A stretch of 64,000 nucleotides of DNA from Strobilurus pachycystidiatus (Eukaryota > Basidiomycota > Agaricomycetes > Agaricales > Physalacriaceae). The notes below the pieces were generated by a model. It did not search any database, was not told the DNA's origin, and was given only the letters and a program-made list of their open reading frames with translations. The position numbers and the translations under genes are program-made. Where the stretch lies: assembly GCA_019915135.1 (NCBI GenBank), contig JAHLMK010000005.1:1860001-1924000 (forward strand), given 5' to 3'. This document shows positions 35,020 to 55,518 of the stretch, piece by piece; the first letter of the stretch is position 1, and each line of letters begins with the position of its first letter.

Positions 35020-36850
35020 TGACACGCTTTATGCGCGCCTGAGCCTAGAAACCGAGAATTTTGCGATTTCTAGATAAGACTCGAAGCCGAAATGCACGAT
35101 ACATCTAACGAGAGACCATAAGATTGCCAGTGATAATACGGAGACCTCATTAGGGCAAGAATGAGCCTCCAGGAGAAATTCATCTTCGAATATCACCATC
35201 CAAAGTGCCCACTTGATTTATCAAGTCAACATCACGTACACATTCTTAAAGAGGACTCGTCTAAGAAACGAACTCGAGTTCCAAGTAATTCGGACTCGAC
35301 TTTGTCAGTGTTGTTCATAGACGATTAGAGTTCGATTAGCTCACTTCCTGCTGATGAGTAGAATGGGGTTAAGCTACAGAATGGTCTAGGTCAGCATAAA
35401 TGGGGATGAAAGCCCAGTAATGTTATCACAAGATACAACTATCCCCTTGGAATTCTAAGTCTAGAACCCACGATAGCACAAAATCGAGTAACAGTCGAGC
35501 TATTCGAAGAAGCCAATAAAGATAAAGATGATCAAGTGTTCTTCATGAATAATCCGCAGTATGCCAAGAGTGTTAAGAATCAAGAAGCCAAGCTTCTTCA
35601 GATCTCAGGTGATTAAATCTGACCTGAAATCAGTAGAGATTGGAACAAGCAGACAGATTGCGAACAACAAGTCAACGATCTACCATGGATCTTAGAGTGG
35701 ATTCTTAAGCGAAATGAAGCTCTAGACTCAATCAGATAATCGAGACTGAATTGGTGACGCAATCTGAAGAATCCGAGTCGCAAAGAAGCATTCAGAACAA
35801 TTAAGAGCCAAGAGAAGATGAACCACATGTGATAGATTCGACCGATAGCACGCAAGGATGTTGCAATCCGAGCTTGAAATTAGTCAACGTGGATCAACTC
35901 TAGAGGGTTCGTCATGAATAAACTGGCATAATAAGGAAATGGAAGCGCCTAGACTGGTGTCTACAGCGCGGAAATTAACTCCAAGTGGCTATTAGTTAGT
36001 AAGTTAAGATTAGTGTACAGTAGGGACCAGTTTGTATAAAAGAAGCGTCGATACAGTATAGTAGTTTAGTTTAGTGACCCGCAGCCACGAGCCCACAAAG
36101 CTCTACTGTAGTAATCTATCTCTGTACAAAATCGAATTCGATTTGCACGCACCCAAAGAAACTCGAATTCGAGTCAAACCTAAGAACCAAAGAACAAACC
36201 TAACGCACTAAGAGCAAGGGTTTAGAACAAAAGTGAACTTAATCGAAGAGCAAAGTTCCTTGAATTCAACGTACTAGAGGCGGTGTTTCTGAGCATAGTA
36301 TCTCCCTAGAGACACTACAGAGACTTTGCAGTCTGAGCCAGCCTTTCCCTAGAGAGGACCGTTCAGTCGCGAAAAGCGTTAACCAGCATAACCTCTTGCG
36401 AGTTCAAGTGCAATTCGAGCACGATTTGGTCTAAAACCCACGCAAAACACTCAAACTCAAAGAATAAGCTCCTACCGAGGTTATAAGAAACATACCAAGT
36501 GTGGCAGTAGACTATCGTGTTCTTGATACAACCCCTCCAGCGCGAGGATTGTGAAAGTCGCATAGTTTAAGTTCAGTCAGAGGCTTGTGTATTGTTCCCT
36601 GAAAACCAGACGATTTGTCAATCGGTCAAAATCCCTACCACCCCCTTCAAACTCGCACTTTGTGCACACCTACGTTTCTGTTACGCAAGAACCTTGTTTT
36701 TCAAGTGTAGTGTTGTAGTAAATCAAGCTCGATTTTCTATTGCAAAACCCAATATTCCAAAACCGCAGAAACTTTACTCTCATTCGGAGTATTAAGAGTT
36801 GTGTTGTTTGTTAGGTGTGATTCTACGCCTCTAAAATAACGTGCACATCA
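35020..36850 (+). repeat. 5' long terminal repeat
   Basis: 1,831 bp, with the same length as the 3' LTR at an offset of 18,664 and identical wherever I compared the two. A TATA box (TATAAAAG, 36035-36042) puts the U3/R boundary near 36,065, so U3 is about 1 kb and the R-U5 leader about 0.8 kb. The leader holds two perfect palindromes: AAATCGAATTCGATTT (36129-36144) and ACTCGAATTCGAGT (36161-36174). Apparently identical LTRs point to recent insertion. Confidence 0.93.
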
Positions 36851-36856
36851 ACTTTT

Positions 36857-36874
36857 TGGAGCCCACCGCGAGGG
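36857..36874 (+). other. Putative primer binding site
   Basis: Six bases after the 5' LTR the sequence TGGAGCCCACCGCGAGGG starts with TGG, the complement of a tRNA 3' CCA, at the position where Ty3/gypsy elements hold their minus-strand primer site. I could not match it to a particular tRNA. It does not match the tRNA-like sequences carried inside this element. Confidence 0.45.
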
Positions 36875-36901
36875 GGTCCTATATTTTGATCAACCAAATC
36901 G

Positions 36902-38653
36902 GTGGTCTTTATATCCAAAAACGTTGCTAAATACACCCGAAGTCAACTAGACGCAAACCCGGAAACACCACCGGTTGCTAGTGGATCTCGAATTGCTCCT
37001 GAAGAATCTGAACTACAAAGTGTCCAAGTAGGAACTAGAAGTTTAAGAAAGAACAGACCACGAGTAGGAGCCCTATTCAACGATCAACCAGAAAAAGTAC
37101 GGGAAAAAGTTCGCAGATTAGCTGAACATCCCCCGCCAATTCGAAGAAGATTAGCTCCTAGAAAGAGTTATTCTGATCTTGAACAATCCGAACTCGAATT
37201 CCTACTTTTAAGCCGAGCCTTAGAAAACTACCAAGATCTTTTAAACATTCCTACGTTTATACCTCCAAGAATGACTACTGTTCGAGCGCTAGTCATCGAT
37301 GAATTTCCTTCTCTGAAGTGGAGAGAAGACATAAAAGACAAAAAGATACCCAAGTATGGCACCAGCAATGCGCCAAACTTCAATGGAAAATCGGAAAACA
37401 TAGCCGATTTTCTAAGGGTGATTGAACAAATCATTGGCGAGTCTGGTATTACGGATGAAGGCACGATGATTGAAATCGCGTGTAACTTTGTGCCAGAAAC
37501 CATTCGAGACCAATGGTTAAATATGCCTACTTTCATTAGAGGAGAGTGGAAAGAATTCAAGTCGGCTTTGTTGTCTAGCTATAACAGAGGCAAAGATGAC
37601 ACCAAGTATTCTCTAGACGATCTAGAGGATGCCATTGTCAAATTCGAAAAACGGCCTGTTGACCACAAAGACAGGTGGAATGTTTTTCAAAGAGAAGTAC
37701 TGCACATATTGCGGTACTTAGTTAAGAAGGGTGAAATCACGGACAAGAAAGCCGTGGAAAGAATCCAAGACTGTGTAACAAATGCAGTTTGGGCCAGTAC
37801 TACTGGTCATTTAAGAACCAACAAACCGGCAGCAACAACGGTGTCGGATTGGTACAACAACATCACCAATGTTGTAGGCGCTATTACCAGCGTGTTGGAA
37901 GAAACGGCAGTCTATAGGACCAAAGGGTCCCACAAGACAGAAACCGGTACTTCAAGAGTCAAGACTGAAGATTTGACGGATACCAATAGTGCACTCAATG
38001 CACTAAGGGATATCCTGATACAATCAGAAAAAGCTAGAGAAAAAGATCGAGTAGAGATGGCGCGCGAGAAGGAAGAAAATCAAAAGAATCATCAACGATT
38101 CCTTGATACAATCAACGCTTCCTTGTTGAATGCGAGAACAATGAATTACCAAGATACCAATTCGATCTCGAATTTTGTTCAATCGGCACCTATCACTGTT
38201 CAACCGCCTATGGGTACGAACAGATCCAACCAGATACCCTATACGGGAGGGAACACTGCAAATCCGACTCGAATTTTGCAGAACCCTAACCGTCTGGTAC
38301 CAGCTGGTCAAACTACGTCGTATTCACAACCCGGGCGCTGCTTTTTCTGTGAAGAACCTGGTCATATGCGTGATCAGTGTAAGAAAAGATTTGACTTGCA
38401 AACGGAAGGTTGGCTAGTGATTACGGAAGCCAACTGGGACTTTTTCAACAATGGCCTTCCGATTTTAAGAAAGGAAAGGGCTGGTGGAAAGTCACCTTTG
38501 CAACAGGTTCTTAAGTACAAAGAAGATAGTCTTCGAGAAGTTAAAGCGCAAACCACTATTGGGCAAACGGATGACTTCGCACCAGAAGACATGCGTTTGG
38601 ATACCTCGTATGCAAATACTATGGTACCTCACAATCAAGGGGGTTTCAACTGA
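36902..38653 (+). CDS. gag: Gag polyprotein with CCHC zinc knuckle
   Basis: Capsid/nucleocapsid precursor. The frame is open from 36890, just after a TGA, to the TGA at 38651-38653 (about 583 codons). The first ATG is not until 37271, yet the upstream ~120 codons read as protein (VREKVRRLAEHPPPIRRRLA). Translation therefore starts at a non-AUG codon, on a spliced leader, or at 37271. The central region (about residues 165-330; FNGKSENIADFLRVIEQIIG, then WKEFKSALLSSYNRGKD) is Retrotrans_gag-like. The nucleocapsid knuckle CFFCEEPGHMRDQC near residue 480 has the full C-x2-C-x4-H-x4-C spacing. The last codons overlap the protease frame and contain the slippery heptamer GGGTTTC (38641-38647). Confidence 0.85.
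   Translation: MVFISKNVAKYTRSQLDANPETPPVASGSRIAPEESELQSVQVGTRSLRKNRPRVGALFNDQPEKVREKVRRLAEHPPPIRRRLAPRKSYSDLEQSELEFLLLSRALENYQDLLNIPTFIPPRMTTVRALVIDEFPSLKWREDIKDKKIPKYGTSNAPNFNGKSENIADFLRVIEQIIGESGITDEGTMIEIACNFVPETIRDQWLNMPTFIRGEWKEFKSALLSSYNRGKDDTKYSLDDLEDAIVKFEKRPVDHKDRWNVFQREVLHILRYLVKKGEITDKKAVERIQDCVTNAVWASTTGHLRTNKPAATTVSDWYNNITNVVGAITSVLEETAVYRTKGSHKTETGTSRVKTEDLTDTNSALNALRDILIQSEKAREKDRVEMAREKEENQKNHQRFLDTINASLLNARTMNYQDTNSISNFVQSAPITVQPPMGTNRSNQIPYTGGNTANPTRILQNPNRLVPAGQTTSYSQPGRCFFCEEPGHMRDQCKKRFDLQTEGWLVITEANWDFFNNGLPILRKERAGGKSPLQQVLKYKEDSLREVKAQTTIGQTDDFAPEDMRLDTSYANTMVPHNQGGFN
38641..38647 (+). promoter_or_regulatory. Gag/Pro -1 frameshift slippery heptamer GGGTTTC
   Basis: In the gag frame it reads G-GGT-TTC, the exact X-XXY-YYZ phase, four bases before the gag TGA. 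The protease frame is open from 38575, so a -1 slip here continues into protease. A 7-bp stem can form downstream between TGAGCTT (38651-38657) and AAGCTCA (38691-38697), with an inner AGATAC/GTATCT mini-palindrome. The 3-nt spacer is short for a stimulatory structure. Confidence 0.7.
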
Positions 38654-39798
38654 GCTTGATGAAGGAAGAAGATACAGTATCTTTACCGGAAAGCTCATAC
38701 GCTGTTAATACTCGAAGTCAGAATAAGAATCAGAACGGTTTACAATTCGAAACCAAAATGCCTAAGACTACAGTACCGACTAAGACGGTATGGCCAAGAC
38801 AGAGGGTCACGGTAGAAATACCAAAGCGACCTACTACAACAGTTCAACCTAAGCAAGTTAGCTTTGAAGATAAAGGTGAAGAAGACAGTTCATCTGACGA
38901 AGAGTCAGAAGGTGGGGAAGTTGAAAAGCAAGTAAAAGACGCTGCTAATCAACCAGAACCGAAAATCGAACTCGATTTACCTAAATCTTCCACGGTAGAT
39001 TCAACTCTACCTAAAATAGAAAAGTTCAAGTCGTACAAAAGAAAATCGGAAATCGATTTGCTTCTTGAAGAAAATCCTCAATGGAAAGAAGCTTGGAAGG
39101 AACTTTTACCAGAGAAGTTACTTGCAACTAACATTGAGTGGCGAAAGAACCTAGAGAAATTGTTAAAGACAAGGAATGTTAAGACTACCTCTAAGCATGT
39201 CTATTCGATTTCACAAATCGAGTCTGAAGAGGTCCCTAAAGGGTCAATAGTCGTACAAGATCCTATAGAACAATTTTTCAACACGACGCAATTTCAAGGA
39301 CCATACCATGTCTCTAAGTTGTACATGGCACCAGAAAGTGTAGACCTCAGAACCCTATGGTTAAGAATCAACCATGGAAATCGAAAAGAGTGTCTCCTAG
39401 ACGGGGGATCACAGATTGCCTCGATGTCTCTCAAGACAGCATTTGAGCTCGGTTTAGCGTACGACCCAAGTTTTAAGATCACTATGGAAAGTGCAGATAA
39501 AGGAAGAACGGTAACATTAGGCTTAGCGCGAAATGTACCGGTAAACTGTGAAGGAATCGTGTATTACCTTCAGTTTCACATTCTACAAGATCCTGCCTAT
39601 GACATTCTACTGGGTAGACCGTTTGAGACTGTGTCTCAAGCAAGCCTACAAACGTCGGCGGCCGGTCTAACCACAGTAACTGTTGTAGACCCAGGGAATG
39701 GCCAAAGAATGACTTTACCCACTTATGCAAGGGGTCAGATACCAAGTCATCAAACTAAGGCTGAACCCGTGGGTTTTCACCCAAACTCGAGGACTTGA
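38641..39798 (+). CDS. pro: Retroviral-type aspartic protease (Pro frame)
   Basis: Processes the Gag-Pro-Pol polyproteins. The frame is shifted -1 from gag, overlaps it for about 79 nt, and ends at TGA 39796-39798. The first ATG is at 38659, so independent initiation is a possible alternative to frameshifting. The N-terminal ~220 residues are a charged, disordered linker. The protease core lies at about residues 245-335: ECLLDGGSQIASMSLKTAFE holds the active-site turn and ends with YDILLGRP, the usual flap-side ILG motif. The active-site triplet is D-G-G rather than the common D-S/T-G. The C-terminus reads EPVGFHPNSRT before the stop. Confidence 0.8.
   Translation, partial: GFQLSLMKEEDTVSLPESSYAVNTRSQNKNQNGLQFETKMPKTTVPTKTVWPRQRVTVEIPKRPTTTVQPKQVSFEDKGEEDSSSDEESEGGEVEKQVKDAANQPEPKIELDLPKSSTVDSTLPKIEKFKSYKRKSEIDLLLEENPQWKEAWKELLPEKLLATNIEWRKNLEKLLKTRNVKTTSKHVYSISQIESEEVPKGSIVVQDPIEQFFNTTQFQGPYHVSKLYMAPESVDLRTLWLRINHGNRKECLLDGGSQIASMSLKTAFELGLAYDPSFKITMESADKGRTVTLGLARNVPVNCEGIVYYLQFHILQDPAYDILLGRPFETVSQASLQTSAAGLTTVTVVDPGNGQRMTLPTYARGQIPSHQTKAEPVGFHPNSRT
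39771..39777 (+). promoter_or_regulatory. Pro/Pol -1 frameshift slippery heptamer GGGTTTT
   Basis: In the protease frame it reads G-GGT-TTT, again the exact X-XXY-YYZ phase, 18 bases before the protease stop. The pol frame is open from this point (GFSPKLEDLNEYQG). A bulged stem CCAAACTC (39781-39788) with GAGTTGG (39813-39819) starts 3 nt downstream, the same spacing as at the first site. Confidence 0.7.
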
Positions 39799-42700
39799 AC
39801 GAATATCAAGGAGAGTTGGCATTGGTGATTGAGAAGGGTCTGAATGGTGAAATCAAGATTAAGCAAACGTATGTTCCAAATGGTGGGCAGGACACGTTTG
39901 ACCCAGAAGCAATAACTAGTCTGTACCTTCGAAAATCCTCGGATAGAGTGAATCAACTAGTAAAACCAATTCGAAATCAGTATCGATTTATGAAACAAGG
40001 AGTGGAACCGTTCATGGTAACACCACCTAGTAAATCGAATTCGATTTTCCCTACTAAAGAAGTATTTGGTTTTAAGAAGTTGTTCGATATTCGAAAAGAG
40101 AAATTCGACTTGGATTTGCCAGAAATCAAAGCCATGTCTACCATGGACATGTTTTATGGCGTACCTAATGGACTAGAAGAAGTGTTCAGTAATTTCAAGG
40201 TATCAATGCCTATAGATTATGTTGGACAAGCAAGAAAGGAATTCCTTTCGAATATCAAGGAAGAAAGAAGTAGTCGGGGAGTATTTGCTACGAAGAAATA
40301 TAAACCCGTACACTTGAAGACCAAGGCTCACTTAGGAACCTTACCAGAAGAATTTCGGATTCAACGACATATTGTAGGAGATCCCTTAAAAGATATGCCT
40401 CAGTTATCGGAAAATCCGCCCGAATTTGTACCAACTGGACGCTATACAGCGGAACGTAGGGAACAGATTCAAGATGACCATACTGGAGATTTCCTATGGC
40501 CGGAAGAACGGAAACTGTTGGACCATTTTATGTGTCTACAGAATGAAGGATTTGCTTGGGATGAAACAGAAAAGGGGAAATTCAGAGAGGATTTCTTCCC
40601 GCCTGTTGATATGCCAGTAATACCTCATACTCCTTGGGTGTTAAAGAACATACCTATACCGCCAGGAATCTATGAAGAAGTATGCAAGATCATAAAACAC
40701 AAAATCGATTCGGGAGTATACGAGCCTTCGAACTCGTCGTATAGAAGTCGATGGTTTTGTGTTGTCAAGAAAGATGGAAAGAAACTGAGATTAGTCCATA
40801 GTCTGGAACCGTTGAACGCGGTTACCATTGCTCACTCAGGTCTACCTCCAGCCACTGAAGAATTAGCAGAGGCTTTTGCGGGTTTGTCTTGCGGAGGGAC
40901 ATTAGATTTGTATGTAGGATACGATGAAAGAATGTTGGCCACTAGCAGTCGCGATATGACTACATTTTCTACACCGTATGGAGCATTAAGACTAAGAACC
41001 TTGCCTATGGGATGGACCAATTCGGTTCCGATTTTCCATGACGATGTAACTTACATCTTAAGAGACGAGATACCAGCTTTTACACGACCTTATATTGACA
41101 ATGTGCCAGTAAAAGGACCAAGTAGCAGGTATCAACAAGCAGATGGTACTTACGAAACCCTCAAATCGAACCCGAAAATCCGCCGGTTCATTTGGGAACA
41201 CTTTTGTAACATGAATCGTATTGTCCAGCGTATGAAATATGCTGGAGGTACTTTTTCAGGTTTGAAAGCGGTTATCTGTGCTGAAGAAATCACTGTAGTT
41301 GGACATGTATGTACATACTATGGAAGAAAACCAGCGGAAGAAAGAGTAAAGGTCATTTCAGACTGGCCCGCTTGTCAATCGCTTACTGAAGTACGATCGT
41401 TCTTAGGAACGGCTGGAATCTTTAGGGCGTTTGTTAAGGATTACTCTAAGAAAGCTCGACCGTTGACTTATTTGACTAAGAAGATCATACCCTTTAAGTG
41501 GGGAGATGAAGAACAAGCAAGTATGGACGAGTTAAAAAGAGCAATAGAGACTTGCCCCATGTTAAAACCTTTAAGATATGACTGGGATACTCCAATCATT
41601 CTATCTGTGGATACTTCATATCAAGCAGTAGGGTTTTATCTGTCGCAATTCGATCCCGAAGAACCTAAGAAGCAGTACTTTGCGAAATTCATGTCGATTA
41701 CCTTGAATGAGCGAGAAGCTAGATATTCGCAAGCGAAAAGAGAATTGTTTGGCTTGTATCGGGCTTTGATGCACTGCAAATATTACTTGCTAGGATGTCG
41801 AAAGCTGAAAATCGAAGTGGATGCCAAATACATTAAAGGAATGTTGTCGAACGTTGACTCATTGGCGAATGCTAATTTACAACGTTGGGCAGAAGAAATT
41901 TTGATGTATCACTTTACCTTAGTACATGTGCCAGGTAAAGTACATGGTCCAGACGGTTTAAGCAGAAGACCCAGTTCAGAACTAGATATACAAGTTCCTA
42001 GACCAGATATTGATGAAGAAGAAGATGTTCTTCATATGTTTGAGTACGAAGAACCTGAAGACATAGAACTGAAAGATAAACCGGAACCGTTCGATTCATT
42101 CAAAGATTTGATTGATAATCGAAAAGGTTTTGCTCAGACAATTGTAAATTCGAGCTCGGTTTTCTGGCCTGGCAAGTATAAAGAACAAAGAGACTTAGCT
42201 CTTAGCGGAGCAGTTTCGATTGAAGAACTAGAAGGATGGCTAGCAATGGATGAATTCCCAGCGTTACCTCGCAGTAAACGAGAAACTAACTGGGAGCTTC
42301 TTTTGCCTTATATGCAAGATTATATACTTGATCCTGAGAAGGAATTTGTGTCGCTAACGGAATCAGAAGTAACCCAATTACAAGAGTGGAGCAAAGATTT
42401 CTTTATCCGACATGAAAAGCTATATAAGAAAGATAAGGATGGAGCACATAAGAGAGTAATACAAAAATCGAGTCGATTTGCTATTGTAAAACGACTGCAT
42501 GACTCGAATGGACATAAAGGCCAATACTCAGTGCTTCAGCTAGTCAAGAAGAGATTTTGGTGGCCTGGATTGGACACTGATATCAAATGGTATACGAAGA
42601 CTTGCATACTATGCCAGAAGAGACAAAAGACCCTTATAAGGACCGAACCTGTGATTACTTCAACACCTGGTATATTCGAGCGAGCCTATATTGACACGTT

Positions 42701-43679
42701 TCGAATGCCAAAATCGGGTTTGAGTTCCTCAAAGGTTGATAAATACAAAGACTATAACGCAGTAACCGTAGCAAGGTGTGGACTCACTGGATGGCCAGAA
42801 GCTCGAGCGTTGAAGGTAGAAAACTCAGAAACGCTAGGTGAATGGATATTCGAAGACATACTATGCAGATGGGGTTGTCTTAAGGAAATCGTAACCGATA
42901 ATGGTCCAGCGATCCTAAAAGCTATACGTTATATTGAAGATAAGTATGGTATAAAGGGTATTGCAATCACGCCGTACAACAAGACGGCTAACGGAAAAGT
43001 AGAAAGAGGACATTGGGATATCAGACAGTCACTATTCAAAGTTTGCAAAGGCAATCCTGAACAATGGCCGCAATTCCTCCATGAAATTCTTTGGGCTGAA
43101 AGAATCACAGTCAAAAGATCCATAGGAACGTCCCCCTTTTACGCTGTAACAGGTTGCGATCCCATTCTACCATTAGATTTGGAAGAAGTAACTTGGTTAG
43201 TGGATACACCAGATAAAATCGTATCGACATCCGATTTACTAGCTTATCGAGCAAAACAGCTCATCAAGCACAAGGAAGATGTAAAAGAAATGAAGAAGCG
43301 AGTTACCCTCAACAAGAAGAAAGCAGCTTCGAAATTCATGGATGATTTTGTCAATAGCATTCCTCGTTATCAATTCGATACTGGAGATTTGGTATTGGTA
43401 AGAAACACTAGAATTGAGAAGGAAATGAACGCAAAGTTCAAAGAAAGGTTCATGGGACCATATGCTGTAGTGGCAAGAACTACTGCAAATAATTACATCT
43501 TGTGCGAACTAGATGGCACTGTATTGAAAGACAAAATCGCTCAATTTAGGGTCATACCGTTCTACTCAAGAAAAGAACCTATTTTCTTGGGGCATAAATT
43601 CTTTGAAGCACTTAAGAGAATCAAGGAAGGCGCTAAGAAAATAGTAGATGACTTGTCAAAGATGGGTAGAAAAGATTAA
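39771..43679 (+). CDS. pol: Pol: reverse transcriptase, RNase H and integrase
   Basis: Read by -1 frameshift from protease; no ATG is needed. The RT domain (about 40,700-41,480) shows WFCVVKKDGKKLRLVHSLEP, LDLYVGYDERMLATSS, and the active-site loop RPYIDNVPVKGP (YIDN at 41091-41102), where YxDD is expected. RNase H follows (ILSVDTSYQAVGFYLSQ; AKRELFGLYRAL; LKIEVDAKY). Integrase: zinc-binding HDSNGH and CILCQ (about 42,500-42,620); catalytic YIDTF, TDNGP and KVERGHW supply D, D and E. A GPY/F-type motif FMGPYAVVARTT lies near the end. RT-RNH-IN order defines Ty3/gypsy. No chromodomain. About 1,300 aa, intact. Confidence 0.93.
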   Translation, partial: GFSPKLEDLNEYQGELALVIEKGLNGEIKIKQTYVPNGGQDTFDPEAITSLYLRKSSDRVNQLVKPIRNQYRFMKQGVEPFMVTPPSKSNSIFPTKEVFGFKKLFDIRKEKFDLDLPEIKAMSTMDMFYGVPNGLEEVFSNFKVSMPIDYVGQARKEFLSNIKEERSSRGVFATKKYKPVHLKTKAHLGTLPEEFRIQRHIVGDPLKDMPQLSENPPEFVPTGRYTAERREQIQDDHTGDFLWPEERKLLDHFMCLQNEGFAWDETEKGKFREDFFPPVDMPVIPHTPWVLKNIPIPPGIYEEVCKIIKHKIDSGVYEPSNSSYRSRWFCVVKKDGKKLRLVHSLEPLNAVTIAHSGLPPATEELAEAFAGLSCGGTLDLYVGYDERMLATSSRDMTTFSTPYGALRLRTLPMGWTNSVPIFHDDVTYILRDEIPAFTRPYIDNVPVKGPSSRYQQADGTYETLKSNPKIRRFIWEHFCNMNRIVQRMKYAGGTFSGLKAVICAEEITVVGHVCTYYGRKPAEERVKVISDWPACQSLTEVRSFLGTAGIFRAFVKDYSKKARPLTYLTKKIIPFKWGDEEQASMDELKRAIETCPMLKPLRYDWDTPIILSVDTSYQAVGFYLSQFDPEEPKKQYFAKFMSITLNEREARYSQAKRELFGLYRALMHCKYYLLGCRKLKIEVDAKYIKGMLSNVDSLANANLQRWAEEILMYHFTLVHVPGKVHGPDGLSRRPSSELDIQVPRPDIDEEEDVLHMFEYEEPEDIELKDKPEPFDSFKDLIDNRKGFAQTIVNSSSVFWPGKYKEQRDLALSGAVSIEELEGWLAMDEFPALPRSKRETNWELLLPYMQDYILDPEKEFVSLTESEVTQLQEWSKDFFIRHEKLYKKDKDGAHKRVIQKSSRFAIVKRLHDSNGHKGQYSVLQLVKKRFWWPGLDTDIKWYTKTCILCQKRQKTLIRTEPVITSTPGIFERAYIDTFRMPKSGLSSSKVDKYKDYNAVTVARCGLTGWPEARALKVENSETLGEWIFEDILCRWGCLKEIVTDNGPAILKAIRYIEDKYGIKGIAITPYNKTANGKVERGHWDIRQSLFKVCKGNPEQWPQFLHEILWAERITVKRSIGTSPFYAVTGCDPILPLDLEEVTWLVDTPDKIVSTSDLLAYRAKQLIKHKEDVKEMKKRVTLNKKKAASKFMDDFVNSIPRYQFDTGDLVLVRNTRIEKEMNAKFKERFMGPYAVVARTTANNYILCELDGTVLKDKIAQFRVIPFYSRKEPIFLGHKFFEALKRIKEGAKKIVDDLSKMGRKD

Positions 43680-43848
43680 GAAAGCAATTTGAATTCAATA
43701 TTGCTAAGAAGTCAAGAGTAGTGTAATCGGTCAGTGCTTGAGAAATTCGAGCTCGAATATGAAAATCAATTCGAGATCGAATAACTCTACAAACAGTGGT
43801 ACCGTATGCTACTAAGATAAAAAGACGACTTTAAGTCGGGGGCCCAAT

Positions 43849-43927
43849 GGTCATATTGGGAATCGAACCCAAGTCCCCCCTAGAATTCTAAGAGAATAGG
43901 GGGATGCGACCATTACACCATATGACC
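43849..43927 (-). tRNA. tRNA-Gln-like sequence 1 (possible intron or pseudogene)
   Basis: Read on the minus strand: perfect 7-bp acceptor stem GGTCATA/TATGACC, A box TGGTGTAATGG, perfect T arm TTGGG-TTCGATT-CCCAA with B box GGTTCGATTCC. The 5' half resembles eukaryotic tRNA-Gln (TATGGTGTAATGGT). The anticodon arm has a CCCCC/GGGGG stem but an enlarged loop of about 18 nt, so it would need an intron or is non-functional as a decoder. The pol III promoter boxes are intact. Amino-acid identity is inferred from the A-box region only. Confidence 0.6.
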
Positions 43928-44015
43928 TTAAAGTACAAGAAGGATTGGTGAATCCCCTGAGCCAAAATTCCATCGAAAAAGAAAAAGATCAGATGCCGAA
44001 GCCGCAAACTAAAGT

Positions 44016-44104: not shown

Positions 44105-44238
44105 TTAAGAATTTATGAAATGTCCGAGACCACAATGCTCCAGATATTACATGAAATCATAAGGTCCTGAGGATATTCGAACTCGAATAGGTGGTGCTGA
44201 ATTTCGATTAAAAAGGCGAAGACACAGTCAACTTATAG

Positions 44239-44934: not shown

Positions 44935-47135
44935 ATGCCTCAACCTATTGCATCCACGTCGACCTATGATTCGCAGCGAACTATCCCTACACAGTCAAGT
45001 GGGCAAGGTAGAGCTGAAAGAATAAAGGATCTGGGCAAACGAATGGGAAGATTGAGCGTTGAAGAAGTAAGTCAAATCGAGAAGATACGAATAAGACTTG
45101 ACTCGATTTTAGTCGCAACCAGCTGGTCAGCACAAAGAGTCGAGAAAAGGAAAAGAAAAGGCTCGAGTAAGAAATTCGAGCATGACTTTTCATCAGGCTA
45201 ATCACTGTGACAATAGACAGTTGACGCAGCGATGGAACCAGAGACAAGGGACAGTTCGCATGAAAACGAGGTAGGTAGAAAATCGAAGTTCGATTTTCTA
45301 CTTAGTTAACATTTCGAACTAAGACCCCGCTTATGGCTCTAATGCCAATCGAAAAGTTCTGGACCAACCCAAAGAACAATGGAGAGCTTCATGCCTATGC
45401 GTTCTCGAGCCAAGTCGACTATTGGTGGAAACTCAACCTAAGTCTACTAGAACGACAGGAATTCATACGAGGCAACATGGACAAGATCAAGGAAATCCTT
45501 ATTCGAAAAGGTATCGATAACCGCGATCTACATGTGGCTAAGTCTTGGTGTTACCTGGTAACGGCAGTGATAGTCGACCCAGTGTTCCAGAAAGCAGACC
45601 CGAATAGCCGTTGGTGGCGCCTAGCCGGTCTAGATTCGTTGATGGCCAAAGCTGTCAATGGTGCCTTGGAGAAAGGGAAGGGTTCCAATCGACCTATCCC
45701 CGCCGTCGAAACACCGCCAACAAAGTTCCTGTACTTCGGCAATACAAATCTTCCCAGCAAGTACCGCATTCGACCTTCACATGACGTGTGTGGGGACATT
45801 GTGCTTGGAAAGCGGCGGATTTACGAAGTAGCCATGGAGCACTTCAACCAGCAGATCCCCCCGCATAACCACTTCGACGTATTCTTTTGGACATCGCTAC
45901 AGCAGGCAGTAACATTCGAGAAAATCGAAATCGAAAATTCGTTTTACTACGTGCTGGACAAGGCGATATCCGAAGGTCTGAAGAAGATGTTCAACAGAGA
46001 ACCGACAACCTCGGGACTTAGAGAGTTCTTCGACTTCGACGCAAGACAGGATCTTAACATAGAACCTTTCACACGTCGACCCGAAGACCAGGATTGGCAC
46101 CTGGTAATTGAATCAATCTCGTACCGGAGAGAAATGTATAAAGTCCCGAAGATGCGAAAAAGAGAAGAACCTGCGCCCGTGCCCAAAACCTTGCAAAAGG
46201 ACCAGGCGAAGGCAATGGTAGAAGCTCCAACAAGGGAGATGAAAGAGGTAAGAAAATCGAATTCGAAGTTCTATTCGAGCTAGATTTAATTGGTTGATTT
46301 AGAAGACCACAAAGAAAGCCAACGCTAGAAAGAGCGAGTTGGAAAAGACCAAGAAGAGAGTAAGTAGAAATTCGATTTCGAATTTCTATAAACTAACTTA
46401 CACTCGAAGAAATATAACGAACTGTCGTTCATTACTGAACCCAGAACGTTAGAAGAAGAGGAAGAAGACCGTGGGCCGCCACCACCAAAGAAGGTCAAGC
46501 GACAGTACAAGAGCAAATCGAGCTCGAAAACTGTTCCGCCCGCGCGTCCTCCAACCCCTCCACCAGTAGCCTCATCATCCAGAGTCCAACTCCCTGCGAA
46601 GCTCGACTTGGGACCAGTATTGGGTATGGAGACTGACGACGACTCTCCTCGAACTCAGGATCCACCTAAGCAGAAGAGTCCAAAGAAGTCGAAGGTGAAC
46701 GAACCCAAGGCCACGAAAATCGACAGTACTGGGGCAGTGTACACTAACAAGGAGGTTCAAGAACGAATTGACACCCTCAATTCGTGCTCGAATTGCTTGA
46801 AGGGTCACAGGGAATGTACTTGGGTTGCGGTTAACGAGCAACTTTGGGAACCCCAGGCGGCCAAAGTCAAGATTCGAATTTCTTGCGACACTTGCCATGA
46901 CCGTCGAGTAATGTGCCAACCACCCGATGTCGATGGTGGTTTCTTCTATCACCAAGCCAAGAAGATACCCGCCTTCGAAAAGATGAAGGATACGTTGGAA
47001 AGCAAGGGTACCGAGCTGAGGGATGCTGAAAGACGCATCAAGGATTTGGAAGAAGAGCTGCAGAAGGAGAAAGAGGCCAAGAAGAAGTTAGAAAAGAAGT
47101 TGGCTAAGGATAAGAAGAAGAGAGCAAGAGAGTAA
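44935..47135 (+). CDS. Accessory gene 1 of the giant retrotransposon: Cys-cluster/coiled-coil protein
   Basis: Six exons (44935-45066, 45113-45166, 45217-45270, 45324-46247, 46303-46359, 46410-47135), all introns phase 0 and 46-55 nt, give 648 aa. The central part (IEKFWTNPKNNGELHAYAFS; LHVAKSWCYLVTAVIVDPVF) is unrecognised. A Lys/Pro-rich linker follows. The C-terminal cluster CSNCLKGHRECTW ... ISCDTCHDRRVMCQPP has the Cys spacing of a small zinc site. A Glu/Lys coiled coil (LEEELQKEKEAKKKLEKKLA) ends the protein. The cluster and coil are shared with accessory gene 2. Four of the five introns carry TCGA inverted repeats. There is no signal peptide or membrane helix, so it is not envelope-like. 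A nuclear or DNA-binding role is inference. Confidence 0.75.
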
Positions 47136-48389
47136 ATCGAATTCGATTTGACATTACCAGTCGGATTACTTTGACTTACTATTGGGACTTGAACTTTTTC
47201 TTACCCCTAGTTGAAATTCATATACGATTTTCTTGAACTAGACAGACTTAGGGTGCAGTAAGCCTCGAATAAGCCAAAAACAAAACGTTCTCGGTTTGCT
47301 TAGCACTATAAGAAAGAAGGGTTCGAATAGCTATGAAAAGATAGAAAATCGAAGAAATTTCGAAAAACGAGTACAAACGAAGTCAAAAATCAAGAAATAC
47401 TGTAACGCTTTATTGTGTGGTCGGTTTGACTTGAGCTTAGTTGGAAAGTTGTTCGAAATCAAAAATAAGCCCCTCAGTTTTTTCGCACGAAGCCTGGGGA
47501 GCGCCGTACGCAGAGATATTAAAGAAGTGACCTTAAAAGGCCCATAGAAGGTTTCCTGCCAAGATACGGACTGTTTCGAAGCTCACAACACTCTACGGAC
47601 TGTTTCATTTGAAGCTCCCAATACGGACTGTTTCGAAGCTCACAACACTCCTTCGGAGTGTTGGGAGCTTCAAATGAAACAGTCCGTAGAGTGTTGTGAG
47701 CTTCGAAACAGTCCGTATTCGAAGCTCACAACACTCCTTCGGAGTGTTGGGAGCTTCAAATGAAACAGTCCGTAGAGTGTTGTGAGCTTCGAAACAGTCC
47801 GTATCCTCCTATAATGATCTAGGAAGTGAGATGGAGCCAATCGGTCAATTTGGGGCCAAACGGAGTATTTTGCCTTTTCTGGCGCGGAAAATGATCCAAT
47901 CGACGATCGGACTTCAGATTTGGAATCCTGGCATCGATATCTACCAGAATCACTTTTCAAAGTGAAAAACGGTCTATTCCTTACTGTCGGTCTAATGGGG
48001 TAAAGAAAGTTTAAAATCGATGGGGGCCAATTCGAGTTTGATTTGACCTGGGTACATTTGGACAAGTAAGAAACATAAGGGTCATAGAAAAGAAAAGCTT
48101 CAGAGCCTAGTAAAGCACTAAGGAATTGGCAAAATACGCTGTAAGATTAGAGAATTGAAGAAAATCATACTCGATTTTCTTAGCTATCACCAAAGAAAGT
48201 TACCAAGAAAAAGAAGAGATATTCAAGCTCGAATATCAAGATAATCAGCCTAGAAATAAAGGGGCAAAATCAAGTGCTTAAGAAGGGTCAGGAAGCGCTG
48301 GAGATGAGATCTATGACCTAAATAGGCAAGAATCTAGATCGTTCGAAGGCGCTGATCCATAAACGTGTGCAACTGCGCATGTCGGACTT
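47136..48389. other. Spacer between accessory genes 1 and 2
   Basis: About 1.25 kb without a supported gene. It contains the foldback array at 47,564-47,804 and scattered TCGA palindromes (ATCGAATTCGATTTG at about 47,136). A short frame at 47,296-47,547 has no motif. Confidence 0.6.
47564..47804. repeat. Large perfect inverted repeat with 86-bp tandem duplication
   Basis: Left arm 47564-47620 (57 nt, starting ATACGGACTGTTTCG) is the exact reverse complement of 47662-47718 and again of 47748-47804. An 86-bp unit is tandemly duplicated without change (47633-47718 and 47719-47804). The centre is a small hairpin AACACTCC-TTC-GGAGTGTT. Each arm is itself built from two related ~30-nt units sharing TACGGACTGTTTC. 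A transcript through it would form a long hairpin. Confidence 0.95.
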
Positions 48390-48458
48390 AGAAATTCGAG
48401 TCAGAAGAAGTTGTCACCGTCGGGTACTCGGAAAGCGATAATCGGTGTCGTATAAAAG
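48390..48458 (+). promoter_or_regulatory. Promoter of accessory gene 2
   Basis: 43-bp block 48390-48432, homologous to 44776-44818, followed 18 bp later by TATAAAAG (48451-48458). A C-run follows near 48,490 and the ATG is at 48572. The conserved spacing between block and TATA supports a functional core promoter separate from the LTR. Confidence 0.6.
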
Positions 48459-48571
48459 CTGGGTCTTCGAGTCTGAAAAACTCTTTTCCCCCCCCCACGA
48501 CGCTTACCACTCGCACTACGACCCTCGATTTCGATTTCCACCTTTTCGACCTCGAATTTCTTCCCACCACC

Positions 48572-50030
48572 ATGCCCATGAAAGACATCGTAGCCGCTAT
48601 GGACCAGACTCAAAACAAGGGACAGCTTAGGGTTGGCGGAGTCAACATCACGAAGGGCCATAACTTCTTGTTCTTGGGCCGGAAACATGTGGACCCCCTC
48701 ATTTATGTCCCCGTCTTCTCCACACAAGCCACTGCAGCTCAGTTGTGGTACTTCCCGGATTCGTTGCGCAAGCTAGCGCCCAAACACCATTTCTACGAAT
48801 TCGCGGCTCGATATGCTAGCACCATCAATCCGCTCGACTTCCAACTGGAATTCGAGATCGAAAAGGTCGATGCCCTGCTTTTCGAAGCCTACGTGCTATG
48901 GTTCGTTTGGACGCTTGCACAAGGAGAACCGGAGCGGGAAGATGAAATCGACATTGAGTGGATGGTTCAAGAATACGAGGTTTTGCTGAGCTCGGTAAAG
49001 ATTCAAGTATAGACAAGATTCGGACTGAAGCTAATAAAACCTTCTAGCCGCAACTTGTCTTGAAACAGATGCGAGAAATCGCAGAAGAAAAAGAGTGGCC
49101 TCTGGAACGGCCTACAGTGTTCAATGAAGAGGTAAGTAAAGAAATTCGAACGCGAATTCCTTACTTAACAAAGATAAGATTTTCTTTGACGATGAAGAAG
49201 ACGAGTCCGCCTCAGAAACGGACAGTGAAGATCAAGAATCGGAGTTGACAACCAGAAACTCGACCCCGAAATCCTCCACACCCCTTTCCACGCCCAAGCC
49301 TAGACCTCGACCCACTCCGTTGAAGTCTGCCGAAGCGAAGGCAAGGATGGAGAAAGAAAAAGGGAAGCCAGCTAGAGCTGAGACACCGGTAAGAAAATCG
49401 ACTTTGAATATCTTCAATTTGAATGAGATTTTCTTATGCCCTATCCAGCGCACCCCCATAGCTTCTACTTCCAAGCAAGCGTTGGAACCCGAACCAGGAA
49501 ATTCGCCTTCGAATTCCCTGCCAACGCCCAAGGCCCTTTCTCATTCTCCTCAGCCAGCGCCTGAACGAATTCGAAAGCGAAAACGTGCCGCGACCCCAGT
49601 GGAGGAGGAAGAGGAAGCGCCAGAGCCCAAGAAACCGAAGACCAATTCAAAGCCGAAATCCTCCACTAGCCGCCCGTCCAAAGCGGACAAGCACGGCAAA
49701 GTGTTGGACAACAAGGCGATGCAGAAGAAGATCAACGTGGATCGCAAGTGTCTCACCTGCGAGCAGCGAGGGCAAGAGTGCACTTGGGAGTATATGCTGA
49801 ATCAGCGGGACCACCCAGACACTGTCAAGACGAAGACTTGTGTATCTTGCGACCGTTGCCGGGTCAAAAGGTACACTTGTTCACCGCCCAAGCGCCGCTA
49901 CGATTACTTCAAGCACAAATCCAAGAAGGATGTCGAATTGGACAAGGCGGCTGAAGAGTTGACGAAGGCAAAGGAAGAGATCGACAAGCTGAAGAAGAAG
50001 TTGAAGAAGGCGAAGAAAGCGAAGGAGTGA
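48572..50030 (+). CDS. Accessory gene 2 of the giant retrotransposon: Cys-cluster/coiled-coil protein
   Basis: Exons 48572-48994, 49048-49131, 49179-49388 and 49449-50030 give 432 aa; introns are phase 0 and 47-60 nt. The N-terminal domain (KGHNFLFLGRKHVDPLIYVP; HHFYEFAARYASTINPLDFQ) is unrecognised. An acidic patch and a long Pro/Lys-rich linker (STPKSSTPLSTPKPRPRP) follow. The Cys cluster CLTCEQRGQECTW ... TCVSCDRCRVKRYTCSPP parallels that of gene 1, with the RVKRYTC part reminiscent of Zn2Cys6 fingers. A Lys/Glu coiled coil ends the protein. Genes 1 and 2 therefore look like duplicates whose N-termini diverged. The third intron has a perfect 10-bp TAAGAAAATC/GATTTTCTTA inverted repeat. Confidence 0.75.
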
Positions 50031-50293
50031 TTCGAGCTCGATTTTCTAAAATAGACAATCGGACTAGTTTTACTTACTGGACTTTAACTTTTTCTTTTAC
50101 AAACACGCATTTCTTGTAGACTTTAAAAATTTTACTTGACGCTTCTAACGCTTTGAAGAACGAAAAAGATTAAGATGCAAATAAGAAATTCAAGATCGAA
50201 TTGTAGAAACTTGATGTGGATAAAAGACATGTTGAATTTCAACGATTCGGTACGAACAATTCAAAGTTAAAGGGAGACATATAAGAAATGTAA

Positions 50294-51463
50294 CTACTCC
50301 CTCCAATGTGGCTCTATACAAAAGTGTCGAAACAAAGGACTGTTACCTCTATTATACAGCCTAGTATAAAAAGTATAAAGTTGTTCAGGCAACAAGGAAG
50401 CTACAACGTGTTGTAAGAGGCGAATGTCCGCAGCAGAGGCAGTTGACCAAGTAATTTCCCAAAAACGTTTAGGTATATTGGGAAAATCCTGGTCGATAAG
50501 CCTGTTAAGAAAGAAGTCAGAAATTCGAATTCGAGTTTCTAACAAATGCTTACGTGGGATATATAGGGCCTGCAGCATTAAGACCTTGGCGAAGAGTAGA
50601 GAAACTGAACTCGCGATCCCGAAATAGTCCTTGACTACCAGGCATAGGGTCAAGAACCCGGTCTTCATAGAACCGTGGAATCCAAGTAATCAGCTCGCGA
50701 ATGTACACTGGAATGCCTCGCGTGGAGGGAGGGATGCTGCGCATCCATTCGACGTCCTCGGGTGACATTATGGTGTTCAAGTACCGAGGCAATGATTGTT
50801 CGGTAGAAAAGAACGCGGTTTCCTATGAAGTGATAAGAAAATCGATCTCGAATTTCTAAGCCAAGAAAAATAACATACTAAAGATCGCATGGTAACCGCT
50901 AGGAACTTCTCTCGAAATTCACCAAATGACAAGTGAATAATCGACTCGGGTAAGATATGGGGAAGAGTAACCCCGTCCAATCCTCGAAGCGGTTCCTCGT
51001 GAAAGAAGGACATCACAAGATGCCAACAGAGAATGTACATAGACAAAAAGCTATTTTCCACACCACGAGCAGTAACGGGGGCAACATGTCGCCATAAGTT
51101 ACTGTAGCGTCGCTAGGAGGATAGTCAGAGAAATTCGAACAAGGAATGCTAGCTCGATTTTCTCACCAGCACATACACCATATACCGCAAGGTAGGAACG
51201 TCCAAGTTACCGTGGTGTCCACCAAAGAAAAGATGACGATCCGTATGGAAAGCCGTCTCTCGATGATCCACGTCGCCCAAGCTACCGTCGGGCTCTCGTT
51301 CCACCATCACAAAGTCGCGGTGTACGCTATAAAGATCCAGAGCGGACGCAACCGCTAATTCAGCCTCGAGAAACACGGCAACATCGTCGGGAATAATGGC
51401 GAAGCTGGAGTGAAGATTGCGGAACCTAAGTTCGCAGAGAAAAGGGAAATTCATCTGAGTCAT
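50294..51463 (-). CDS. Accessory gene 3 of the giant retrotransposon (antisense to pol), unknown protein
   Basis: Exons 51167-51463, 50879-51112, 50554-50822 and 50294-50501 (introns 54, 56 and 52 nt) give 335 aa in frame. The start reads MTQMNFPFLCELRFRNLHSS. Later parts include FLSMYILCWHLVMSFFHEEP, VEWMRSIPPSTRGIPVYIRE and FWEITWSTASAADIRLLQHV. I recognise no domain; the hydrophobic stretch is too short and too polar at its ends for a confident membrane helix. All three introns contain the AGAAA(A/T)TCGA-type hairpin. It converges on accessory gene 2, with 263 bp between their stops. Confidence 0.68.
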
Positions 51464-51823
51464 GGTGATGAATGTCCACCACTCGAAAAGATCAAATTTA
51501 TAAGAATCGAGAAGAAAGGTACCAAACCGATTAAGAAAAGAACCAAGACCTAAGTAAAGAAACCAATAGGAGATAATCGAACCCGAATTTCTCGGGTCCG
51601 ATTATCGAATCCAAGATCAAGAGTAAGAATGTCTATATGCAGACCGACAGATAATAATACATGCGCGAGTAGACTAAAAAGATAAAGGTCCGTCGCGTAA
51701 GCCCCAAGCCTCCGGTACACTAGTCACAGTTCAAGCCAAGATTTCCGACTAGTTACTTTGTAAAGAACAAGTCATCAATTACTTATGCTAAGAAGTATCA
51801 ATGATGACTTGGCTCCCGATGAT

Positions 51824-53424
51824 CTAAGGGACCAAAGAATCAGTCGCGGCCAGGTACAGGTCCCTCGTGCGCAGGAAGGTTTGAACCTCCCCGTGAGCCC
51901 TGTTCATGGTCAAGGACAACTCGTGGCGATAGCCGTGTTCCGCGGCTACCATCGACGCGGAAAGAGCCAAGTCCGCGGGAAGCGCAGCCAAGATCTGCAT
52001 TCTGCGAACAATGGCAGAACTGGCACCTTGGTAAGCGTTGACCAACTGAGCGGCTGTCAAGAAAACAAATTCGAGTTAGATACACCCAAAATCGAAATCG
52101 AATTTGTTACTCACTAGAAGACAACTGATCAATGAGGACGGGTTCGATGTTAAACCCAGCGGGTTTAAGAGCCTTGGCCATCCTCTTGGATTCAGGAAGA
52201 GCAACAGTGGCCTTGCGCTTGGGAGCCGTCTCCAACTGAGCAGTAGGAATGGATCCCGACGTCGCCACAGCCTTGTGATACAAGGAAGAATTAGTATCCA
52301 GGCCGGGTACTTCACAATAGTAAAGATATTTTACCGAGCGAGCAGACTATATAGAAGTCAAAAATCGAGCTCGAAAAGCTAAAGAGCCAATAACTCACGG
52401 CTTCAGAGGCTGTAGAAGCGGGAGGTGTAGCAACCTCGACCACTTCTTCATCGCTATCCTCTTCGTCGGAAGACTCCACGGAGAGCTGTTTAAGAAAAGC
52501 AGCCAGATCAGCCTCGTAATCTAGACCGAAAAGGCATCAGAAGCTTACTTCGGAGTCGGAAGAGTTTACTTCACCCATTTCTGAATGATCATCAGCCCAT
52601 TGGAAGCCATTAGTAAAAGAAGATTTACTAATGTCGCCAGAGGCAAATCGAATAGGATCGTCCAGAACGGTGGAAGAAGAAGAAGCCTTCTATAACATAA
52701 GACATAAGAAATTCGAACTCGAAACACAGAAAATCGAAATACGAACCAGAACCTTGAGCTTGTTCTTACCCTTGGGTTCGGGAGATTTAGCCTTCTCCTT
52801 ACCCTTGGAAGAGGAAGCCTCGATGAGTTTCTTCCATTTGGGATGGAGGGGATGGATCGAAGGAAGGCTGGCAGCTTCCGCCGCGATAGTACCCTTCTTG
52901 GTGCAAGTCATGACGAACGCGTTAAGCACGTTGGCCAGGTTAACGGTATGCAAATGAGGGCTGACACCCAACTCGGAAACCGCCAAACCTAAGAACGAGC
53001 GAAGATTGCAGGAAAACGTGGCGAGCTTCTCGGGATAGATGCAACCGGAGACGTTGTCCTTGGGAAGGTTCGCTCCCTTATAAAGATTTTAGAAAATCGA
53101 GCACGAATTCATAAGAAGAGAAAATCGACTCACAAGAACCTTGATGATGACCATGTCCAAAGACGCGGCCTTATCCTTGGCGGAAGCCTTGGAGCGGTCC
53201 ATGTACTCGACCGATTTAAGGACCAAGGGACAGAGGCTGTTGTAAAGCGTCAAGACGGCGGGAACCAAACCCGTAGCAGGCGGATCCCAATATTTAATAT
53301 GGATGAAGAGCGCTTTGCCATCAGCGAGGCGACGTTCAACTAGCTCGGGAACGGTGTCGGGAGCCTCATCAGGGATAAGGTTGACGATTCCGGTCCACGA
53401 TTTCTTGGAAACAAGAGAAGGCAT
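51824..53424 (-). CDS. Accessory gene 4 of the giant retrotransposon (antisense to pol), unknown protein
   Basis: Seven exons (53134-53424, 52747-53076, 52575-52689, 52399-52520, 52335-52346, 52115-52271, 51824-52053) sum to 418 aa with phase kept. Exon 5 is a 12-nt microexon; retaining the following 63-nt intron also stays in frame, so that intron is less certain. Start MPSLVSKKSWTGIVNLIPDE; then a helical domain (LHTVNLANVLNAFVMTCTKK), a Lys-rich linker, an acidic region (ESSDEEDSDEEVVEVATPP), and a C-terminal helical part (AQLVNAYQGASSAIVRRMQI; HELSLTMNRAHGEVQTFLRT). No known domain. Its start lies about 260 bp from the 3' LTR, so the promoter is probably in that gap. Confidence 0.65.
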
Positions 53425-53670
53425 TGTGAGAAGTGTAGAAGAATTTCGAGGGTGAAATGGTTAGCAGGTGCTGGGGCAAATCGACCAGAAACCGCCGACT
53501 ATTTAACCAAGTTGCAAAGATCACACGAAGACCCAGCGAGCGCTTTGTTCGCGCCAACTGGAGTTGGGATTGCATCCGTGCAGACAAAACCCGAAGAGAG
53601 AACCAGAAAAATAAGCGAAATGAATTATGGTTCAGGGTGAAGATCTTGATGTTGCGGACAACATATCGAA

Positions 53671-53683
53671 AGTTAAAGGGAGA
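53671..53683 (+). other. Polypurine tract
   Basis: AGTTAAAGGGAGA directly abuts the 3' LTR start (TG at 53684-53685), the position and composition expected for plus-strand priming. Confidence 0.7.
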
Positions 53684-55514
53684 TGACACGCTTTATGCGC
53701 GCCTGAGCCTAGAAACCGAGAATTTTGCGATTTCTAGATAAGACTCGAAGCCGAAATGCACGATACATCTAACGAGAGACCATAAGATTGCCAGTGATAA
53801 TACGGAGACCTCATTAGGGCAAGAATGAGCCTCCAGGAGAAATTCATCTTCGAATATCACCATCCAAAGTGCCCACTTGATTTATCAAGTCAACATCACG
53901 TACACATTCTTAAAGAGGACTCGTCTAAGAAACGAACTCGAGTTCCAAGTAATTCGGACTCGACTTTGTCAGTGTTGTTCATAGACGATTAGAGTTCGAT
54001 TAGCTCACTTCCTGCTGATGAGTAGAATGGGGTTAAGCTACAGAATGGTCTAGGTCAGCATAAATGGGGATGAAAGCCCAGTAATGTTATCACAAGATAC
54101 AACTATCCCCTTGGAATTCTAAGTCTAGAACCCACGATAGCACAAAATCGAGTAACAGTCGAGCTATTCGAAGAAGCCAATAAAGATAAAGATGATCAAG
54201 TGTTCTTCATGAATAATCCGCAGTATGCCAAGAGTGTTAAGAATCAAGAAGCCAAGCTTCTTCAGATCTCAGGTGATTAAATCTGACCTGAAATCAGTAG
54301 AGATTGGAACAAGCAGACAGATTGCGAACAACAAGTCAACGATCTACCATGGATCTTAGAGTGGATTCTTAAGCGAAATGAAGCTCTAGACTCAATCAGA
54401 TAATCGAGACTGAATTGGTGACGCAATCTGAAGAATCCGAGTCGCAAAGAAGCATTCAGAACAATTAAGAGCCAAGAGAAGATGAACCACATGTGATAGA
54501 TTCGACCGATAGCACGCAAGGATGTTGCAATCCGAGCTTGAAATTAGTCAACGTGGATCAACTCTAGAGGGTTCGTCATGAATAAACTGGCATAATAAGG
54601 AAATGGAAGCGCCTAGACTGGTGTCTACAGCGCGGAAATTAACTCCAAGTGGCTATTAGTTAGTAAGTTAAGATTAGTGTACAGTAGGGACCAGTTTGTA
54701 TAAAAGAAGCGTCGATACAGTATAGTAGTTTAGTTTAGTGACCCGCAGCCACGAGCCCACAAAGCTCTACTGTAGTAATCTATCTCTGTACAAAATCGAA
54801 TTCGATTTGCACGCACCCAAAGAAACTCGAATTCGAGTCAAACCTAAGAACCAAAGAACAAACCTAACGCACTAAGAGCAAGGGTTTAGAACAAAAGTGA
54901 ACTTAATCGAAGAGCAAAGTTCCTTGAATTCAACGTACTAGAGGCGGTGTTTCTGAGCATAGTATCTCCCTAGAGACACTACAGAGACTTTGCAGTCTGA
55001 GCCAGCCTTTCCCTAGAGAGGACCGTTCAGTCGCGAAAAGCGTTAACCAGCATAACCTCTTGCGAGTTCAAGTGCAATTCGAGCACGATTTGGTCTAAAA
55101 CCCACGCAAAACACTCAAACTCAAAGAATAAGCTCCTACCGAGGTTATAAGAAACATACCAAGTGTGGCAGTAGACTATCGTGTTCTTGATACAACCCCT
55201 CCAGCGCGAGGATTGTGAAAGTCGCATAGTTTAAGTTCAGTCAGAGGCTTGTGTATTGTTCCCTGAAAACCAGACGATTTGTCAATCGGTCAAAATCCCT
55301 ACCACCCCCTTCAAACTCGCACTTTGTGCACACCTACGTTTCTGTTACGCAAGAACCTTGTTTTTCAAGTGTAGTGTTGTAGTAAATCAAGCTCGATTTT
55401 CTATTGCAAAACCCAATATTCCAAAACCGCAGAAACTTTACTCTCATTCGGAGTATTAAGAGTTGTGTTGTTTGTTAGGTGTGATTCTACGCCTCTAAAA
55501 TAACGTGCACATCA
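53684..55514 (+). repeat. 3' long terminal repeat
   Basis: 1,831 bp, matching the 5' LTR; TATA box at 54699-54706. It is followed by the target duplicate GCGC (55515-55518). Short frames inside are shared with the 5' LTR and are not genes. Confidence 0.93.
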
Positions 55515-55518
55515 GCGC

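Follow-up and report, generated by a model that had tools for sequence, protein, structure and literature searches.

A recent 20.5-kb Ty3/gypsy-type insertion in Strobilurus pachycystidiatus with a four-gene accessory module and predicted introns

Additional open reading frames (ORFs), antisense genes and introns have each been described in long terminal repeat (LTR) retrotransposons (PMC11963269, PMC7264820, PMC12786077, PMC5408684; here and below, statements on cited work refer to the accessible parts of the reports), and the antisense gene of the maize element Grande is reported to have its own promoter (PMC7264820). We analysed a window of 64,000 nucleotides from the fungus Strobilurus pachycystidiatus (contig JAHLMK010000005.1, positions 1,860,001 to 1,924,000), in which a Ty3/gypsy-type LTR retrotransposon holds four accessory genes with predicted introns. 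Another point of comparison is provided by the VANDALs, plant elements outside the class of LTR retrotransposons. In their case, related VANC proteins act on families that have different motifs (PMC5735166).

The element occupies positions 35020-55514 of the window. It is a complete Ty3/gypsy-type element of 20.5 kb, as judged from the structural features tested and from the order of its domains. The LTRs begin with TG, end with CA and are identical, and a GCGC duplication is present on both sides (35016-35019 and 55515-55518); the flank has a tandem paralogue, near 55,916, that carries an unoccupied form of the insertion site. The insertion is recent. These boundaries, together with the primer binding site and the polypurine tract (Table 1), had been proposed in an earlier note on this DNA and were all confirmed. 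The gag, protease and pol genes correspond to three overlapping frames, with overlaps at 38575-38656 and 39765-39801. In-phase -1 heptamers are found in both (GGGTTTC at 38641-38647 in the gag/protease overlap, GGGTTTT at 39771 and CCCAAAC at 39780 in the protease/pol overlap), as if the frames were joined by two -1 frameshifts at putatively active heptamers. Pfam recognizes two RNase H models (residues 579-715 of the pol frame) and an integrase zinc domain (residues 900-955) above cut-off, and it lists no reverse transcriptase (RT) model for the pol protein of the window. The Ty3 order is supported because RNase H precedes integrase. The RT-RNase H part of pol has 1,545 relatives in the protein database at E 1e-10; Lentinula, Armillaria, Agrocybe and Mycena are among the matches listed.

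The element belongs to a family that we called family I. A genome search with the LTR gave at least 40 matches (best 40 of 62 candidates scored), an RT piece matched 21 places at ≥96% identity among the matches listed (123 of 307 candidates scored), and accessory gene A is represented by its main exon at 20 genomic places, in one case from residue 132 onwards only. We compared 11 further copies in pieces (C1a, C1b, C1c, C2, C6, C10, C12, C21, C22, C26 and C30). All 11 carry the region 3' of pol at different sites, as the earlier note had anticipated for a stable family, and they align throughout this region except for a variable inverted repeat (47,560-47,805) and a few short gaps. Thus, the alignment gave no sign of a nested element with its own ends, which the same note had considered. 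The LTR pairs of the 11 copies differ at 0-4 of 1,831 bases, and perfect 4-bp duplications flank 9 of the 12 copies, window included; the exceptions are C21, C12 and C30, the last of which ends at a contig edge. The copies are therefore separate recent insertions. The flanking tetramers of the 12 copies have CG in the middle in 24 of 24 cases, not all of them independent since C21 and C22 have one common left flank, which suggests a target-site preference. The window copy is devoid of 19 bp near 36924, around the start of the gag frame, that are present in 11 of the 11 other copies.

Copy C1c, the most diverged of those compared, differs from the window by more than 4% in the introns and two spacers. 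We rejected the idea that it is an old decaying copy, as only 3 bases separate its two LTRs. It stems from a diverged subfamily and was inserted recently, and it is a mosaic, because its spacer between genes C and D differs from that of the window at only 1 of 360 bases. CpG positions between 36851 and 53683 have changed more than others relative to C1c (4.6% vs 2.0%), an excess that would be compatible with CpG methylation.

The ~10 kb 3' of pol hold the sense genes A and B and the antisense genes C and D, modelled with 6, 4, 3 and 6 exons, respectively. Together they have 15 predicted introns, with GT...AG at every boundary. Two sense and two antisense multi-exon genes were also what the earlier note had described, and the codon-level divergence from C1c supports the predicted frames of B, C and D well, and that of A less well. 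The nonsynonymous and synonymous changes number 13 and 33 in B, 4 and 11 in C, 3 and 27 in D, 14 and 52 in pol, and 19 and 11 in A. The corresponding ratios of nonsynonymous to synonymous rates (dN/dS) are 0.11 for both B and C, 0.04 for D and 0.07 for pol. Purifying selection acts on B, C and D, and it is very probable that we are dealing with a Ty3/gypsy lineage that has a selected accessory module.

Genes A and B code for proteins with a common C-terminal domain (E 1.7e-15) and a lysine-rich, coiled-coil-like tail. When they are aligned with the A/B-type proteins of three other loci, an invariant C-x2-C-x6-C-T pattern and one further Cys stand out in the Cys-rich domain of these proteins. 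The earlier note could relate the accessory genes to no known family, and none of the four proteins exceeds the Pfam cut-off. In the protein database, A and D have no relative at E 0.01, in a search that scored only candidates of similar length sharing most words and that split exons would escape. Searched against the PDB, a profile of the Cys domain of A/B found no match, and a piece of A hit nothing but designed 'Pizza' proteins, outside the Cys part, a match that was discarded; the AlphaFold model of exon 4 of A alone was not used (mean predicted local distance difference test score 37). Among viral contigs, pol had no pattern match, and none of the 16 pattern matches of exon 4 of A was confirmed.

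All predicted introns are kept. In each of the 11 other copies, 812-814 of the 814 intron bases are aligned and 0 of the 15 introns is missing; hence, intron-less copies were sought but not found among the 12 copies compared. One locus (C2:2663300-2665900) looked like a shortened copy from hit lengths, a reading rejected because the alignment shows all five introns of A. An element that moves via RNA is expected to lose spliced sense introns, yet eight predicted ones persist in 12 copies, and in each of two related families, II and III, two sense introns were predicted by eye. The sense-intron puzzle raised in the earlier note thus holds for predicted introns. Since C1c combines more than 4% intron divergence with LTRs that are 99.84% identical, it is probable that the introns were retained through many copying cycles. 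The element has been copied repeatedly via RNA without losing its predicted introns, and its own RNA is therefore probably shielded from splicing. We find it likely, from the sequence comparisons, that genes A to D are spliced while the genomic RNA keeps the introns. The means by which a fungal LTR element prevents splicing of its genomic RNA can now be tested.

Sister families inform on the age of the module. The same RT search gave more than 60 further places with about 82-86% identity. We read one representative of family II (L045) and one of family III (L043). In both, a single A/B-type gene lies in sense and is accompanied by antisense C and D genes, the orientation seen in family I. As families with ~85% identical RT carry the same kinds of genes, the module is old rather than fresh cargo. 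The C proteins of families II and III are 33-39% identical to that of family I in matched stretches, and the D proteins are 28-46% identical, or 53-54% at three loci on contig C3. Thus, the accessory genes evolve much faster than the RT, or are exchanged, and the accessory region is best described as an old, fast-evolving module. The earlier statement that the cargo moved recently is correct for the insertion of the element, whose LTRs are identical, but not for a recent acquisition of the genes, since families II and III carry them too. At one locus of contig C3 (L042, 5629-9495), C- and D-like genes share a strand and lie opposite an A/B-type frame, with no related RT listed nearby.

The element also contains a dispersed motif, TCGANNTCGA, which occurs as 24 dyads in 18.7 kb of family I sequence, vs 2 in the 43.5 kb of flanks (mean 1.5). 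Its density is 7.4 per kb in introns, 1.9 in other non-coding DNA and 0.58 in coding sequence. The 18-base form of the dyad is present with at most one mismatch at 111 genomic places, mostly in family I copies among the matches listed, and the reversed control at 0. Family II has no TCGANNTCGA and instead 34 occurrences of AAGGTC (shuffle mean 4.8, max 11), which shows no excess in family I (11 vs mean 11.5). A family-specific enriched motif, as in VANC systems, was thus found for families I and II only. The flanks of the dyads show no covariation (76/192 vs 78.3 permuted, p 0.69). The reading of the dyads as RNA hairpins was therefore rejected, and a sequence motif in DNA is favoured over a stem.

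The explanation that best accounts for the whole is a recent Ty3/gypsy insertion with a regulatory module owned by its lineage and a genomic RNA that keeps its introns, and we consider it probable. Genes A and B are each preceded by a 43-nt box (91% identity between the two), which starts ~160 (A) and ~180 (B) bases before the start codon, and by TATA-like sequences ~100-120 bases before it. Separate A and B messages from internal promoters are therefore likely, and C and D would be transcribed from the other strand. The host would splice the mRNAs of A to D, and the full-length LTR transcript would largely escape splicing, so that the introns are copied along. The most likely function of A and B would be to control the element by recognizing its own nucleic acid. 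By binding the dispersed family-specific motif, TCGANNTCGA in this family, they could act like VANC, counteracting silencing or activating transcription, and the element may counter host silencing. We favour binding to a DNA motif over RNA export, but motif binding by the accessory proteins is a tentative proposal with the odds against it. It is more doubtful still that VANC-like counter-silencing evolved in a fungal Ty3 lineage, with fast-evolving zinc-type proteins that would co-evolve with the family motifs (TCGANNTCGA in family I, AAGGTC in family II), intron-bearing internal genes and introns protected in the genomic RNA.

Several observations weigh against the explanation that we prefer. 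Family III has no dyads and a weak excess of AAGGTC (16 vs mean 6.3, max 12), and at L042 there are 3 dyads (shuffle max 2), such that the notion of a separate motif in each family is based on two families. C1c has 18 dyads, vs 25-27 in the other copies, and the dyad cores are not better conserved in it than their flanks (10/176 vs 48/1,055 bases changed). The dN/dS of gene A is 0.47, and C1c has both a stop and a frameshift in this gene as well as a frameshift in gene D. Relative to the window, at least one of genes A to D is interrupted by a stop or a frameshift in six of the 11 copies (C30, C2, C1a, C6, C1c and C21) and none in C10, C22, C12, C1b and C26. Finally, the mean pairing of 5' splice sites is equal in the 12 sense and 17 antisense introns (0.57 vs 0.58, p 0.39).

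This last result also bears on the idea that A and B act on unspliced genomic RNA, controlling its splicing or its export like CERV or Rev, helped by hairpins that close some 5' splice sites. Such a role would fit the retention of every intron in all copies and the predicted pairing of the 5' splice site at 0.69-0.99 in 6 of the 12 sense introns, among them the first one in both family II and family III. Folding is also more stable in sense than in antisense introns (mean z relative to shuffles -2.07 vs -0.62, p 0.022), and the Cys loop of CERV is required for export (PMC10309623), which recalls the conserved Cys pattern of A/B-type proteins. However, the dyads also occur in LTR, coding and spacer DNA and lack stem covariation, and with the equal pairing on both strands we regard this role as rather unlikely. 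That the motifs bind nothing and are by-products of replication, generated by template switching or mutational bias, is a serious possibility, although we would not bet on it: repeat turnover does occur, given the variable inverted-repeat stretch, and the cores are no better conserved than the flanks, but the spacing of the dyads is exactly six bases, 24 were found where 0.46 are expected, their density is lowest in coding sequence and a sister family has a different motif.

The intron paradox would vanish if the region were a series of independent or decaying ORFs and the predicted introns were not spliced. In favour of this, every copy compared has all the introns, the last predicted intron of B is 60 nt without a stop and may be exonic, and the interrupted accessory genes of 6 of the 11 copies would suit decay. 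In contrast, the joined frames of B, C and D are strongly enriched in synonymous changes, all introns have GT...AG ends, the introns diverge faster from C1c than the exons (4.7% vs 1.5-3.5%), and the last intron of D has the same position and phase in families I, II and III and at L042 despite protein identities of 28-54%. We therefore hold unspliced introns to be improbable and retain the view of an element with spliced accessory genes and intron-keeping genomic RNA.

Table 1. Features of the element, in window coordinates
Feature	Position	Strand	Remarks
5' LTR	35020..36850	+	1,831 bp; identical to 3' LTR, 0 mismatches
Primer binding site (TGG...)	36857..36875	+	6 bases 3' of LTR; sequence reading
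gag reading frame, stop to stop	36890..38653	+	CCHC match below Pfam cut-off
Protease reading frame	38575..39798	+	Pfam protease match below cut-off
pol reading frame (RT, RNase H, integrase)	39765..43679	+	
tRNA-like unit 1	43848..43927	-	Rfam tRNA 44.7 bits (gathering 29); ARAGORN
tRNA-like unit 2	44015..44104	-	Rfam tRNA 43.2 bits; ARAGORN
tRNA-like unit 3	44238..44310	-	Rfam tRNA 41.0 bits; ARAGORN
43-nt box before gene A	44776..44818	+	TATATAG at 44836-44842, TATA found by eye
Gene A (predicted)	44935..47135	+	exons 44935-45066, 45113-45166, 45217-45270, 45324-46247, 46303-46359, 46410-47135; 648 aa
Inverted-repeat stretch between A and B	47560..47805		structure varies among copies; nearly absent in C26
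43-nt box before gene B	48390..48432	+	TATAAAAG at 48451-48458, TATA found by eye
Gene B (predicted)	48572..50030	+	exons 48572-48994, 49048-49131, 49179-49388, 49449-50030; 432 aa
Gene C (predicted)	50550..51463	-	exons 51463-51167, 51112-50879, 50822-50550; 267 aa
Gene D (predicted)	51824..53424	-	exons 53424-53134, 53076-52747, 52689-52549, 52485-52399, 52346-52115, 52053-51824; 436 aa
Polypurine tract	53669..53683	+	sequence reading
3' LTR	53684..55514	+	1,831 bp; then GCGC at 55515-55518
24 TCGANNTCGA dyads, dispersed	35020..53683		shuffle mean 0.46, max 3

Three antisense units between pol and gene A contain sequences resembling A and B boxes and are followed by T runs, as seen by eye. 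We call them tRNA-like rather than functional tRNA genes: ARAGORN types only unit 1 (Lys), gives tRNA-??? for the two others, and a normal anticodon loop was not found. The 511-base stretch with all three units is present at full length at 17 places and over 507 bases at an 18th, and for all 23 matches listed, family I sequence is found in the same stretch. No such units were found in L043 or L045, and no constraint on them was seen relative to C1c (4.5% divergence vs 4.2% in the surrounding spacer). They are perhaps RNA polymerase III units or chromatin barriers. As for the primer of the element, the genome has 146 matches, with at most one mismatch, to a 16-mer complementary to the primer binding site, and ARAGORN found no tRNA in the 6 of these 146 places that were fetched. 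Outside the element, the window contains a 2,499-aa reading frame (24115-31614, + strand) that we take to resemble a Helitron helicase protein.

The plant Ty3/gypsy elements Retand and Grande likewise have antisense genes in an extended stretch that separates pol from the 3' LTR, and their additional-ORF proteins are suspected DNA binders, as proposed here (PMC11963269, PMC7264820). Retand-type elements are marked by an antisense gene coding for a TRP28 domain and by an RT of the plant Retand lineage, and we do not assign the fungal element to them. The fungal element adds sense accessory genes, predicted introns in all four genes and tRNA-like units; the word intron is absent from the main text of both reports. 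Closer to the intron question, the LTR retrotransposon Cer1 makes a Cys-loop accessory protein, CERV, from a spliced mRNA while its genomic RNA is unspliced; it has one accessory gene, and the accessible part of PMC10309623 mentions neither a family-specific DNA motif nor antisense genes. Ogre and EVADE are also LTR elements with introns, functional ones in their case and predicted ones here, but their splicing makes subgenomic RNAs of the element (PMC12786077), whereas here the introns are in separate accessory genes on both strands.

A tRNA-like sequence in an LTR element is known from Helenus, fungi included, which is short and non-autonomous and has its tRNA-like part in the LTRs (PMC10886601), unlike the three antisense internal units found here. 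Sireviruses also have a high-copy symmetric CpG-containing motif, with a CGG-CCG core, found in the LTRs of these Ty1/copia elements and 5' of their env-like gene (PMC2829016). The VANC system of VANDALs likewise combines short dispersed family-specific motifs, a fast-evolving accessory gene and proposed anti-silencing. Binding and methylation loss have been demonstrated for VANC (PMC5735166) and are hypothetical for the fungal element, and the VANC motifs are often tandem repeats, whereas those of the fungal element are dispersed. We found no literature report of a fungal Ty3 lineage with an A-D module, in a search outside which most subscription papers lie and that leaves absence unproven. 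The element is of a known kind, an LTR element with additional ORFs, and is an unusual form of it. If its motifs are binding sites, it would represent a retrotransposon parallel to the sequence-specific anti-silencing arms race of plant transposons.

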